Shown: positions 25,455 to 36,104 of the stretch, in pieces
Position numbering within the stretch: the stretch's first letter is position 1
How the letters are laid out: each line of letters begins with the position of its first letter
Virus record (IMG/VR): IMGVR_UViG_3300032307_000475
Location: 1-43,064 of that record
Origin: a virus
Strand: one strand, 5' to 3'
DNA: 43,064 nucleotides
Translations under genes and position numbers: made by a program
The notes under the pieces: model-generated
The model's input: only the letters and a program-made list of their open reading frames with translations
What the model was told of the DNA's origin: nothing
Databases searched by the model: none

Positions 25455-25952
25455 ATGGCAGATATTCTATCCTTCGATAAGATGTTCTATACGAACTTCG
25501 AACCAAAAATGAAAAACCGTTATATAATGGAATTGACCGATACGGCAATACCATCATTTACGGTAAGTGCGGCTAACCGACCATCAATTCAATTTGAGAC
25601 TGTAAAAATAGACCACATCAACGTTTATAGAAAATTGAAAGGTAAGGGCGAGTGGCAAGACTTGGAAATTACTTTGTATGACCCAATCGTACCATCGGCA
25701 GCACAGGCAGTAATGGAGTGGGTTCGTTTATCACATGAATCTATTACTGGTAGAGATGGATATGCAGAAATGTATAAAAAGGATATCGATTTTTACCTAT
25801 TAGGACCTGTTGGTGATAAGATTGAACAATGGAAATTGAAAGGTGCATTTATCTCTCAAGCAAACTTTGGAGATTTAGCATATAGTACAACAAATGAGCC
25901 TGTAACAATTACATTAACATTAACTTACGATTACGCAATCTTAGAATTCTAA
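25455..25952 (+). CDS. Tail tube protein (T4 gp19-like)
   Basis: 165 aa, the usual size of the gp19 family. Visible hallmarks are an N-terminal F-x-M-F-Y-T-N-F-E-P-K-x-K-N-R-Y-I-M segment, IPSFTVSAANRP, GEWQDLEITLYDPI, and the C-terminal strands GDLAYSTTNEPVTITLTLTYDYAIL. Members form hexameric rings that stack into the inner tube through which DNA passes. It lies directly after the sheath, the standard order in contractile phages, and is followed by a double hairpin with a T tract. The assignment is confident from length, motif and position. Confidence 0.92.
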   Translation: MADILSFDKMFYTNFEPKMKNRYIMELTDTAIPSFTVSAANRPSIQFETVKIDHINVYRKLKGKGEWQDLEITLYDPIVPSAAQAVMEWVRLSHESITGRDGYAEMYKKDIDFYLLGPVGDKIEQWKLKGAFISQANFGDLAYSTTNEPVTITLTLTYDYAILEF

Positions 25953-25958
25953 AATATT

Positions 25959-26017
25959 CCTTACGGAAGCTACCGAAGGACAACCCTCATCAGAAATGGT
26001 GGGGGTTTTTTATTTTT
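25959..26017 (+). terminator. Double-hairpin terminator after the tube gene
   Basis: The first hairpin at 25959-25979 pairs CCTT-CGG with CCG-AAGG around a six-base loop, with one bulged A. The second at 25982-26007 pairs aaccctcatc with ggtgggggtt around agaaat and is followed by T6-A-T5. The second is a canonical intrinsic terminator; the first may stabilise the 3' end of abundant tube mRNA. Confidence 0.78.
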
Positions 26018-26069: not shown

Positions 26070-26831
26070 ATGAGCGAAAAGCAATATGATTTTCCAACGG
26101 AAGTGTTGGATTTGCCATCGGAAGGTAAGGTATATCCAAAAGATAACCCACTATCATCTGGTAGGATTACAATTAAATTAATGACAGCAAAAGAAGAAGA
26201 TATTCTTTCTTCTACCAACCTTATCAAAAAAGGTATTGTATTGGATAAACTATTCGAATCTATTATAGTGGATAGTGTAAACCCAAAAGATATTATAATT
26301 GGTGATAAGAACGCAATCCTTTTAGCAACAAGAGTATTGGGTTATGGACCTGAGTATAATTTCAGCTTTTATTCATCTAAAAAAGGTGATTATGTAAATG
26401 TAAATATGGATTTGACACAGGTTAAAACTAAAGATGTTGATTTATCCGTATTTAATAATAAGAATGAATTTGAATATATTACACCACATGGTAAGAACAA
26501 AATAGTATTTAAAATTCTTACTCATGGTGATGAAAACGATATAGATAAAGAAGTTGAAGCTCTTAAAAAATTAAATAAAGATTTATCATCTGATATTACA
26601 ACTCGTTTGAGATATATGATTAAATCAGTTGATGGAAACGCTGAAGTAGGGCATATTACTAGATTTGTTAATAATATGAGAGCCTTAGATAGTAGAGCAT
26701 TCAGACAGCATGTTAAAGAAATATCTCCTGATATGGATATGACTTATGTTCATACACATGAAGATGGTGAGGTGGAGGAGGAGCCTATCACATTAGGGGT
26801 TGGCTTTTTTTGGCCTACCACCGGGTCATAG
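26070..26831 (+). CDS. Baseplate hub/assembly protein (T4 gp26-like, T4_baseplate family)
   Basis: 253 aa. Residues 8-45 read LDLPSEGKVYPKDNPLSSG, then ITIKLMTAKEEDIL, followed by LIKKGIVLDKLFESIIVD and GDKNAILLATRVLGYG. This is the strongly conserved start of the T4_baseplate (gp26) family. The C-terminus ends ITLGVGFFWPTTGS; an FFWP-type ending also fits the family. The gene overlaps the next frame by 32 nt. At the overlap, codons GGC TTT TTT TGG form a run of seven T (26805-26811), a possible slip site that would make a 318-aa fusion with the downstream frame. T4 genes 26 and 51 are also adjacent. Confidence 0.8.
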   Translation: MSEKQYDFPTEVLDLPSEGKVYPKDNPLSSGRITIKLMTAKEEDILSSTNLIKKGIVLDKLFESIIVDSVNPKDIIIGDKNAILLATRVLGYGPEYNFSFYSSKKGDYVNVNMDLTQVKTKDVDLSVFNNKNEFEYITPHGKNKIVFKILTHGDENDIDKEVEALKKLNKDLSSDITTRLRYMIKSVDGNAEVGHITRFVNNMRALDSRAFRQHVKEISPDMDMTYVHTHEDGEVEEEPITLGVGFFWPTTGS

Positions 26832-27027
26832 TATAGATTTGCATTCTCAAATATTTGATATGGTAAATTACGGAAACGGATTTACTGTTATGGAATTGTA
26901 TAAAATGCCAACCCGATTGAGGATGTTCTATTATAATAAATTAGTTGATGCAAAGAAGAAAGAAAACGAACAAATAGAAAAATCAAATAAAGCAGCATCA
27001 GCATCAAAAGTTAGGGTTAGACGATAA
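26800..27027 (+). CDS. Small overlapping gene (gp51-like), possibly expressed by frameshift
   Basis: The frame opens at TTG 26800, just after an in-frame TAG, and is +1 relative to the gp26-like gene. The first ATG is at 26860, but residues before it (LPPGHSIDLHSQIFDMVNYG) look like part of the protein. The core IFDMVNYGNGFTVMELYKMPTRLRMFYYNKL matches the pattern of small assembly proteins encoded next to gp26 in T4-like phages (aromatic-G-GFT, then MP, then LR-x-FY). The last ~25 residues are Lys-rich. Translation either starts at TTG or continues from the upstream gene by a +1 or -2 shift on T7. The stop codon lies within the loop of the terminator. Confidence 0.6.
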   Translation: MAFFGLPPGHSIDLHSQIFDMVNYGNGFTVMELYKMPTRLRMFYYNKLVDAKKKENEQIEKSNKAASASKVRVRR

Positions 27028-27040
27028 TCCTAACTTTTTT
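27006..27040 (+). terminator. Rho-independent terminator overlapping the gp51-like stop
   Basis: aaaagttagg (27006-27015) pairs with cctaactttt (27029-27038) around a 13-nt loop, ending in T6 at 27035-27040. The 5' arm encodes the last residues of the upstream protein and the stop codon is in the loop. An octamer follows 10 nt later. Confidence 0.72.
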
Positions 27041-27058: not shown

Positions 27059-27078
27059 GATGTTAAACTATATTGATT

Positions 27079-27321
27079 ATGAAAAAATACAAAATATCAA
27101 AAGAAAATTTAAATGAGTTTTGGGGATTGTTTGGTAAAAAGAAACCACAAACACTGCAGCAAGTTATAGATAATGACCCAATTTTAAACAAATTGGATGA
27201 TGAACTATATGATATTAATAGAAGCTATATTCCAAAATTACAAAAAATAAAAGATAACGAACCTGAAATGTGGAAGCAACTGCTAAAATATGGTTTAGTG
27301 GACCCTAAAGACTTTAAATAA
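27079..27321 (+). CDS. Small Lys-rich protein of unknown function (80 aa)
   Basis: ATG 27079 (MKKYKISKENLNEFWGLFGKK) is preferred over the in-frame TTG at 27073. The protein is basic at the N-terminus and helical throughout, with QQVIDNDPILNKLDDELYDIN and a final YGLVDPKDF. No membrane segment or catalytic motif is visible. It lies 10 nt before the tape measure gene and directly after a terminator-octamer pair, so it is the first gene of the tail-core unit. The position suggests a small tail or hub accessory protein, but the function is unknown. Confidence 0.6.
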   Translation: MKKYKISKENLNEFWGLFGKKKPQTLQQVIDNDPILNKLDDELYDINRSYIPKLQKIKDNEPEMWKQLLKYGLVDPKDFK

Positions 27322-27331
27322 TTTTTTATAA

Positions 27332-29725
27332 ATGGCGGTAAACGAAATTACACCAGAACAGCAACAAGAACTTAATGTGCTTTTAGAAAAAGAAGCACTT
27401 ATCAGGGAAAGAATTGCGGAAATAAATAAAAGAGTAGCAACAGCCCAAGGTAAAGAAAAGCAAAGACTTGAAAATGCTATTAATCAAGAAAATATAAGAT
27501 TAAAAAATGGTGCTCAACGTATTGCTCAATTAAAAAAGTTACAAGAAGCTGCGCAATATGAAGAAACTATATTCAAATCAATATCTGGAGTAAACGAGCA
27601 TATTAAAAAACAAATAAACGGTCAAACAACAAATACACAAACATTGGGTAATGTGACTGCTATGCTTGTTAGATTAAAAAAAGAAGAAGTAACAGCTTCA
27701 GAAGATGATGCAAAATTAATAGCAGCACGAAGGGAAACATTACAAGGTATTGCACAAAAAACTATTGATATAGCAAAAGAAGCAGATGCACATCATCATC
27801 ATAGTGAAACATCCGCACAAAAGAGAGAAAAATTTCAAAAAAGTATAGCACATTTAACAGCTGCAGAAAAAGAAGAAGCTGAAACATTATATGAAGTTCA
27901 TGAGAGATTAGAAAAGAAAATAGAAAGACAAAAAGCTTTACATGAGCAAATGCATGGTGTTATACACCACATACCAGAACCAATAAGTGATGCTGTAAAA
28001 TTTACAAAGAATATGGTTTCAAACTTAGGAAAGGGTGTATTTCTTACTGGATTATTAGCTGCCGGATTAATGGCTGGTATGCATGCATTTATGGAAATGG
28101 ATGAGGCTTCAGCAAAGTACAAAGAAAACACAGGCTTTACCAATAATATGACCAAAGAAATTGATGACACAGTACATCATACTGGATTGGCATATAGAGG
28201 GTTGGGTGTTACTATGGAGAAGGCTTATGAGGTTCAAAATCAATTAGCAAATCAGCAGAGTGATATGTTCCACTTTGCACAAGGTACTACCGATGCGTTA
28301 TCTCTTATGGAAGCAACGATGGGTATTAGTGCAGCAAACTCAGCAGCAGTACAAGCATCGTTTGAGCAAATAGGTGGATTATCAGAAGCTACTGCGGCTA
28401 ATACTCAAATGATGGCGGCTAAATTAGCAGAAGGGGTTGGCGTATCTCCTGCTGAAATGTTTGCTGATATGTCAAAAAGTGCTGGAGTTCTTTCTAAGCA
28501 CATGAAAGGAAATGTAAATCTATTCATACAATCTGCAGCAAAAGCTAAAATGTTAGGTACTTCATTGGAGGATACCGCAAAGGTAGCTGAAGATTTATTA
28601 GATTTTGAATCGGGTATAGAAGCTGAATTAGTAGCAGCAACAATGGTTGGTGGTCAATTCAATCTTAGTAGAGCTAGAGCCTTAGCCTATGAAGGTAAGA
28701 TTGTTGAAGCAAACGAAGCAACATTAGATGCAATAGAGCAAAGTGGGGATTTCAGTAAGCAAGATTATCACACAAAAATGGCCTTAGCTAAAGCAGCTAA
28801 CATGGAAGTGGAGGAAATTGAAAAGCAAATAGGTATCCGAAACAAATTAAATACAATGGGTGGGGATACTTTAAAAAATGCAAAAGCTCTTATAGAATCT
28901 GGGGTTGATATTAGTACAATGGATGATGATACATTGAAGAAAAAAGCAGAACAATTTGCAACCCAACAAAGAATAACCAGCCAAATGGATGAATTTAAAA
29001 ATGCTATTGCTGGTTCGGTGGAGCAAATTGGAGGAAGAATGTTACCAGCGTTTCAAGCTATAATGCCGATTTTAGTTGGTATGGCTAATGTATTTGGTGT
29101 AATTGGTGATACGATAAAATTTATGCAAGATAACACTTGGGCTATGATAGCAGGATTAACAGCAATGAGTATTATTGCTTATGTAATAGTTGCAGCAAAA
29201 TTAAAAGAATTAGCACTTGAAAGGCAAATCAGAGCAGCAAAATTACAAGCATTAGGTATTGAAACTGCAAAAGCAACTGCTAGTATATTCGGTGGAGGTG
29301 GTGGTTTGGGACCTGTTGGTTGGGCATTAGCTGGAGCAGCTGTATTAGGTATGTTAGCTATGATTGCATCTGCAACTAAAAAGGGGGATGACGTATTTTC
29401 ACCTGGAAGTAATTCATCTGGATATGGTTCTAGAACCTTAATGGGACCTGAAGGAGCAATACAACTTAATAATAAAGATTCGGTAATAGCAGGTACTGAT
29501 TTATTTTCAAAACCAAAAGAATCACAACCAACTCCACTACAAACATCATCTCCAGTGGCTACATCAAGTAATAATATGATTGGTGCACTAATAAATGAAT
29601 TTAGAGGAGTTAGAGCTGATATGGCAAGTGGTAAGATAGGAGTTTATATGGATAATCAAAAGGTTACTGCTAACGTAACTAGAACTATGGATAATAGTAC
29701 TAGAAATAATTTTGCATTAGTATAA
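27332..29725 (+). CDS. Tape measure protein (797 aa)
   Basis: The first ~215 residues are highly charged, Gln/Lys/Glu-rich coiled coil (LLEKEALIRERIAEINKRV and similar) with a HHHH cluster at residues 154-157. Hydrophobic segments at ~232-250 (GVFLTGLLAAGLMAGMHAF), ~590-625 and ~655-690 (GPVGWALAGAAVLGMLAM) are typical of tape measures, which thread through the tube and enter the envelope. The C-terminal part has SRTLMGPEGAIQLNNKDSVIAGTDLF, a segment I have seen in tape measure proteins of other contractile phages. At about 0.15 nm per residue the tail would be near 120 nm. It follows tube and baseplate chaperone genes, as expected. Confidence 0.85.
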   Translation: MAVNEITPEQQQELNVLLEKEALIRERIAEINKRVATAQGKEKQRLENAINQENIRLKNGAQRIAQLKKLQEAAQYEETIFKSISGVNEHIKKQINGQTTNTQTLGNVTAMLVRLKKEEVTASEDDAKLIAARRETLQGIAQKTIDIAKEADAHHHHSETSAQKREKFQKSIAHLTAAEKEEAETLYEVHERLEKKIERQKALHEQMHGVIHHIPEPISDAVKFTKNMVSNLGKGVFLTGLLAAGLMAGMHAFMEMDEASAKYKENTGFTNNMTKEIDDTVHHTGLAYRGLGVTMEKAYEVQNQLANQQSDMFHFAQGTTDALSLMEATMGISAANSAAVQASFEQIGGLSEATAANTQMMAAKLAEGVGVSPAEMFADMSKSAGVLSKHMKGNVNLFIQSAAKAKMLGTSLEDTAKVAEDLLDFESGIEAELVAATMVGGQFNLSRARALAYEGKIVEANEATLDAIEQSGDFSKQDYHTKMALAKAANMEVEEIEKQIGIRNKLNTMGGDTLKNAKALIESGVDISTMDDDTLKKKAEQFATQQRITSQMDEFKNAIAGSVEQIGGRMLPAFQAIMPILVGMANVFGVIGDTIKFMQDNTWAMIAGLTAMSIIAYVIVAAKLKELALERQIRAAKLQALGIETAKATASIFGGGGGLGPVGWALAGAAVLGMLAMIASATKKGDDVFSPGSNSSGYGSRTLMGPEGAIQLNNKDSVIAGTDLFSKPKESQPTPLQTSSPVATSSNNMIGALINEFRGVRADMASGKIGVYMDNQKVTANVTRTMDNSTRNNFALV

Positions 29726-36067: not shown

Positions 36068-36104
36068 ATCCCGAACTATTATTTGGTAGTTTGGGATTTT
36101 TTTT
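36068..36104 (+). terminator. Rho-independent terminator of the tmRNA gene
   Basis: An 11-bp stem, atcccgaacta with tagtttgggat (one G-T pair), and an 8-nt loop, followed by a run of T to 36104. The loop and 3' arm also contain the -33 box of the next promoter. Confidence 0.85.

Follow-up and report, generated by a model that had tools for sequence, protein, structure and literature searches.

Two overlapping reading frames lie between the tail tube gene and the tape measure gene of the virus IMGVR_UViG_3300032307_000475, which raises the question whether they are two genes or a single gene decoded in two ways. In the following, the window denotes the whole stretch of DNA that was analysed (43,064 nucleotides, positions 1 to 43,064 of this IMG/VR record). 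An initial annotation of the window had proposed that a programmed frameshift joins a gp26-like and a gp51-like frame. Comparison with relatives supports this proposal, and none of the sequence findings that would speak against it turned up. We consider it highly probable from this comparison that positions 26070-27027 represent one T4-like myophage chaperone gene, decoded in two ways through programmed +1 frameshifting.

According to this reading, most ribosomes would terminate at the zero-frame TAG and release the gp26-like short form, G. A minority would slip at TTT TTT_TGG, where the P-site tRNA-Phe would move one base forward onto TTT. Reading would then restart at GGC in the +1 frame, resulting in a long form, GT, which carries a gp51-type T domain. 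The fusion junction in the window would read GVGFFGLPPGH. We infer that such frameshifting occurs, and with it a rate, a G:GT ratio and a function: by analogy with lambda, many copies of G and few of GT would coat the tape measure protein, while T would recruit tail tube subunits. The features of the locus are listed in Table 1.

Table 1. Features of the predicted G/GT locus, in positions of the window.
Feature	Positions	Strand	Basis
Terminator-like hairpin 5' of G	25982-26007	+	
G (TAC-N), short form (253 aa) of the predicted gp26-like tail assembly chaperone	26070-26831	+	PF12322, phrog_150, AlphaFold model
GGAGGAGG with the conserved GGAGG, -34 and -31 relative to the slip codon	26774-26781	+	
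+1-frame TAG closing that frame 5' of the shift site	26794-26796	+	sequence
Putative shift site TTT TTT T (TTT 26808-26810 as slip codon, T 26811 as skipped base)	26805-26811	+	
Predicted T domain, +1 frame after the shift (GLPPGHSIDLHSQIFDM...RVRR); 318-aa fusion overall	26812-27027	+	
TAG, zero-frame stop, end of the short form	26829-26831	+	sequence
Terminator-like hairpin across the 3' end of the T frame	27006-27038	+	
Predicted tape measure protein gene, expected chaperone client	27332-29725	+	phrog_167 E 4.6e-5

Reading frames at the end of the gp26-like gene

The first frame, ORF1, ends in GTT GGC TTT TTT TGG CCT ACC ACC GGG TCA TAG. A run of seven T (T7) is thus present in the gp26-like frame as described initially; the distance between this run and the stop, given as 18 nt, is in fact 17 nt. 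The second frame is indeed +1, is closed upstream by a TAG and offers only a TTG (26800) before protein-like sequence begins. Skipping one base yields the fusion of 318 residues that had been announced. The label gp51-like for the second frame holds for the C-terminal (T) part of gp51, not for the whole protein.

The window is AT-rich, and T7 matches it 28 times on both strands together, compared to 42 matches expected. T7 alone is therefore not rare here, and the evidence lies in its conservation and not in the run itself. Nevertheless, the copy at the shift site is the only T7 inside a plus strand gene in the whole window, and all other plus strand matches are confined to 36097-36104, just 3' of a tmRNA gene.

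Identity of G and its genomic context

Family membership was assigned by comparison. G of the window matches PF12322 with 28.5 bits (cut-off 24.5, E 1.5e-6) and phrog_150, the T4 gp26 family, with an E value of 2.4e-8. The AlphaFold model of G (pLDDT 89.9) matches predicted proteins of the gp26 family. In the fold search the HK97 chaperone 2ob9 ranked top by VIA, a weak match with Z 4.4, and no other family stood out in the VIA-align list. The same structure was the only PDB match among those listed with a Foldseek probability >0.5, which is again weak. A search by sequence for a solved structure of this protein found none.

The comparison likewise gives the gene order: tube (25455-25952), G, T, one small ORF and the tape measure gene. 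Sheath and tube genes are thus located 5' of G and the tape measure gene 3' of it. Taken together with the family of G, this arrangement identifies the window as the predicted tail module of a T4-like myophage. The small ORF that separates T from the tape measure gene (27073-27321, plus strand, 82 aa) has no match in PHROGs or Pfam.

Conservation of the putative shift site

We compared 160 related loci, 80 close and 80 more distant ones, with a few contigs present in both sets. All 160 show YTT_T in phase at the end of the gp26-like gene, as TTT TTT T in 158 loci, TTC TTT T in one and TTT CTT T in one. The following codon is TGG, TAC or TAT and is followed by CCT in 159 loci. Run and overlap are kept in relatives down to 46% identity, and relatives devoid of the run, which the initial annotation had named as a refutation, did not appear, since T7 is found in the same phase in 158 of the 160. 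The essential site, however, is YTT_T and not T7 itself. Codon usage underlines this fixation: among the other conserved Phe codons 21-36% are TTC, but at the two site codons it occurs only once among 231. The Phe and Pro codons of the site are fixed, whereas Phe and Pro codons elsewhere in the gene vary. Even more distant phages place T in the +1 frame, namely SP-15, GXN1 and LR756508, in which the site is TTT_C, and RM378, in which T follows TTT TTT TGG.

The same comparison refutes a sequencing or assembly indel in one continuous gene. Homopolymers are error-prone, and one locus of the cyanophage group does carry G and T fused in frame. However, the same phase break recurs in 160 loci, which stem from many contigs, and several phages that were isolated and sequenced have it as well, leaving an artefact with practically no chance.

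Coding in the +1 frame

A T-like domain follows the site in the +1 frame in every one of the 160 related loci. Between the site and the zero-frame stop, mean peptide identity between loci amounts to 73% in the +1 frame versus 31% in the zero frame. The zero-frame tail comprises four residues in some loci and six in others, its end moving by two codons. The comparison thereby shows dual-frame coding at the putative shift site.

T might alternatively be a separate gene, translated from its own start (the TTG at 26800) or by re-initiation after the TAG. The TTG is present in the window but reads TTA in L001-L003, relatives with 96-97% identity. Among 118 distinct junctions, 54 lack any ATG, GTG or TTG upstream of the T core and 78 lack ATG or GTG, while some potentially usable ATG, GTG or TTG is found in 64. 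No set of relatives exhibits a consistent ATG, the clear start of a second gene that the initial annotation had considered decisive. Moreover, conservation of the +1 frame starts at the shift site and not at a start codon. In 76 of 80 cyanophage-type loci an ATG or GTG lies no more than a few bases from the zero-frame stop, so that a stand-alone T is possible in those loci. As an explanation of the present locus we regard a separate T gene as very unlikely.

With two overlapping frames between the tail tube and tape measure genes, a conserved slippery site near the end of the first frame and nearly half of the junctions devoid of a second-frame start, the programmed frameshift reading places the locus among the G/GT pairs. 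The likeness to the G/GT tail chaperones drawn initially holds well: the tape measure gene comes after this gene, T4 gp26 and gp51 are members of its family, and cyanophages and KVP40 have -1 G/GT sites in the homologous place.

In the checked database records the T domain is shortened, doubtfully started or unnamed. For phages immuto (L082, 6851-6961), Mel-JY01 (L083, 6749-6985) and SP-15 (L086, 5827-5946), the records list the T frame as a short hypothetical protein or give it a doubtful start, and the fusion is unannotated in all three.

Direction of the proposed shift

On T7 alone, both a +1 and a -2 shift permit re-pairing, and the initial annotation had named both. In a -2 shift, as used by phage Mu (PMC5009743), tRNA-Phe could re-pair two bases back on T7, and the product would contain one extra residue (FFFG versus FFG). 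The rare variants of the site are informative here. At TTC TTT TAC (L238) and TTT CTT TGG (L258 and phage immuto), +1 re-pairing is possible while a -2 shift would work only with a mismatch. Of the two directions, +1 was upheld, whereas -2 is incompatible with these three sites and seems exceedingly improbable to us. A +1 rather than a -2 direction is hence supported by comparison of the sites. In phage immuto on Flavobacterium sp. LMO8 the tryptic junction peptide would be expected to end ...GVSFLGLTPEYR after a +1 shift and ...GVSFLFGLTPEYR after a -2 shift; a peptide spanning the junction was not found in the literature searched.

The same loci bear on slippage of RNA polymerase on T7, by which transcripts with one T fewer would arise and ordinary translation would produce the fusion. 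Such slippage would be compatible with the T7 homopolymer in 158 of 160 loci. Yet immuto, L258 and L238 keep the layout with T runs of only three or four, which makes polymerase slippage unlikely, and the run is also broken in GXN1 and LR756508. Furthermore, slippage alone has no need for a fixed codon phase. We thus assign polymerase slippage a low probability.

Relationship to other T4-like chaperones

T4 gp26 and gp51 score 215.6 and 177.5 bits against PF12322, both over the gp26-like part. In the alignment, gp26 stops where gp51 continues for ~45 more residues. By this alignment T4 gp26 and gp51 are paralogues, gp26 corresponding to G and gp51 to G plus T. In profile comparison, the T domain here matches cyanophage T with a probability of 94% (E 1.4e-7), and cyanophage T in turn matches the end of T4 gp51 with 97% (E 1.1e-10). 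The direct comparison of T with gp51 is weak (4%), hence membership in the gp51 C-terminal domain is reached via the cyanophage intermediate.

The single gp26-like gene of P-SSM2, S-PM2, Cr30, phiW-14 and KVP40 ends in T TTT TTC, and their T occupies the -1 frame; HTVC008M uses T TTT TTT, likewise with a -1-frame T. As in the present lineage, these phages have one PF12322 gene, poly-T at the same FF position and T in an overlapping frame; their stop follows the site directly or after 3 nt. Among cyanophage-type loci, T TTT TTC with a -1-frame T is found in 79 of 80, and GAGG is located at -15 in 73 of the 79, a spacing that resembles that of dnaX. The cyanophage -1 sites have GAGGG ~9 nt 5' of the site, unlike the locus studied here. 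The latter does not belong to the X XXY YYZ class of -1 sites, as its T is read in +1 and its site in the zero frame is (C/G) TTT TTT T.

A tree built from the G domain unites the +1 group as one clade on one side of a branch with support of 100/100, and places the -1 group together with the duplicated group on the other side of the same branch. Some branches are long, which renders finer placements unsure. T4-type gp26 and gp51 fall into a common group (100/98) that excludes KVP40, the pattern that a duplication within Straboviridae would be expected to produce. For one orthologous gene and one problem there are seemingly three solutions: T4 has two genes, other T4-like phages shift -1 at poly-T, and this lineage has one gene with a predicted +1 shift. 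The split on a single branch makes the direction of frameshifting a traceable and testable trait at the same FF position.

Two loci deviate in layout. The cyanophage-type locus L159 (1977-2870) shows an in-frame fusion of G and T, with T5GG instead of T6CGG, which is either a natural form or an assembly indel; the model of this fusion has a pLDDT of 67 overall and is poor in the T region. In L087 (~5763, LR756511), a distant jumbo-phage relative, T is seemingly reached by -1 (GGT TTT TTC TTC) or from an ATG overlapping the stop.

A conserved GGAGG element upstream of the site

GGAGG is located at -34 in 104 of 118 junctions, whereas the rest of the gene contains it 0.42 times per kb. Within the element, two third-codon positions are fixed as G. 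In immuto, L255 and L257 the element is displaced by 1-3 bases, in immuto out of codon register. The fixed third positions and the displaced copies, including the one off register, indicate that GGAGG is selected as a nucleotide sequence.

At ~30 nt 5' of the site the element is too far away for known Shine-Dalgarno stimulation, and we know of no stimulator acting at such a distance. At many gene starts of the window there is little Shine-Dalgarno; little use of it is a trait of Bacteroidota. The A-site codon (TGG, TAC or TAT) is no stop and is not clearly rare. Folding of the up- and downstream regions with alifold in search of a stimulating RNA structure gave an empty consensus, a weak negative as column-shuffled controls were empty too. 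Two further roles of the element were considered and rejected. The bases for pairing of GGAGG with a downstream CCTNCC are explained by Leu/Pro codons of the +1 frame, with no covariation. A start signal of an internal gene was dismissed because in none of 116 junctions does ATG, GTG or TTG take the place of the Ile codon ~8 nt further on.

We tentatively suggest, while holding it for rather doubtful, that YTT_T before a sense codon is an undescribed bacterial +1 signal driven by GGAGG ~30 nt upstream. Its mechanism would differ from the short-range Shine-Dalgarno mechanism of prfB, and the hosts would probably be Bacteroidota that hardly use Shine-Dalgarno. The fixed nucleotide elements offer simple mutants for testing.

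Comparison with known frameshift systems

Frameshifting in G/GT genes is long established and can go in the -1, -2 or +1 direction (PMC5009743). In lambda (Levin 1993; Xu 2004; reviewed in PMC5009743) the shift is -1, whereas here a +1 shift at YTT_T is predicted; no sequence link was found between lambda G and this PF12322 protein. T4 gp26 and gp51 are of the same family and form the same pair of short and long proteins as here. A review from 2016 set T4 apart from the other long-tailed phages as the exception to G/GT frameshifting (PMC5009743). A 2007 paper had already pointed out a G/GT pair of the duplication form in phage 0305phi8-36 (PMC2147016). Later papers credit Vladimirov, Gautam and Davidson 2022 with both the two-gene chaperones and the -1 poly-T sites of T4-like phages (PMC10885494, PMC12846349).

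Mechanistic parallels are prfB (RF2) with CUU_UGA and PA-X with UUU_CGU, in which the P-site YUU slips +1 onto UUU or UUC, as proposed here (PMC10885494, PMC3498833). CUU_U is the prfB site (PMC10885494), and the +1 site UUU_CGU, of the UUU_C type that SP-15, GXN1 and LR756508 show as TTT_C, was proved by mass spectrometry in another virus (PMC3498833). The A site of the present lineage holds a sense codon (TGG, TAC or TAT), and a Shine-Dalgarno sequence 3 nt upstream is absent. The haloarchaeal myovirus HSTV-2, as cited in PMC5009743, is an archaeal virus whose tail chaperone gene pair is likewise probably read by a +1 shift. A description of a +1 class in gp26-type chaperones was not found in the literature searched, in which Vladimirov et al. 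2022 is represented by the papers citing it. Within this scope the +1 class, the YTT_T rule and the conserved GGAGG ~30 nt upstream appear to be new.

Terminator-like hairpins and a nearby tmRNA gene

Terminator-like sites precede G in 98 of 116 loci and accompany the T end in 72 of 110, in both cases versus 0 of 348 shuffled stretches. As these hairpins bracket G/GT and recur in most relatives, G/GT may be a transcription unit of its own, separate from the tape measure gene.

A tmRNA gene is located inside the structural region of the phage at 35676-36065 on the plus strand. ARAGORN predicts the tag VNKPEHYLSAP* for it, and it matches Rfam RF00023 with 66.7 bits. The gene is followed by a T8 run at 36097-36104.
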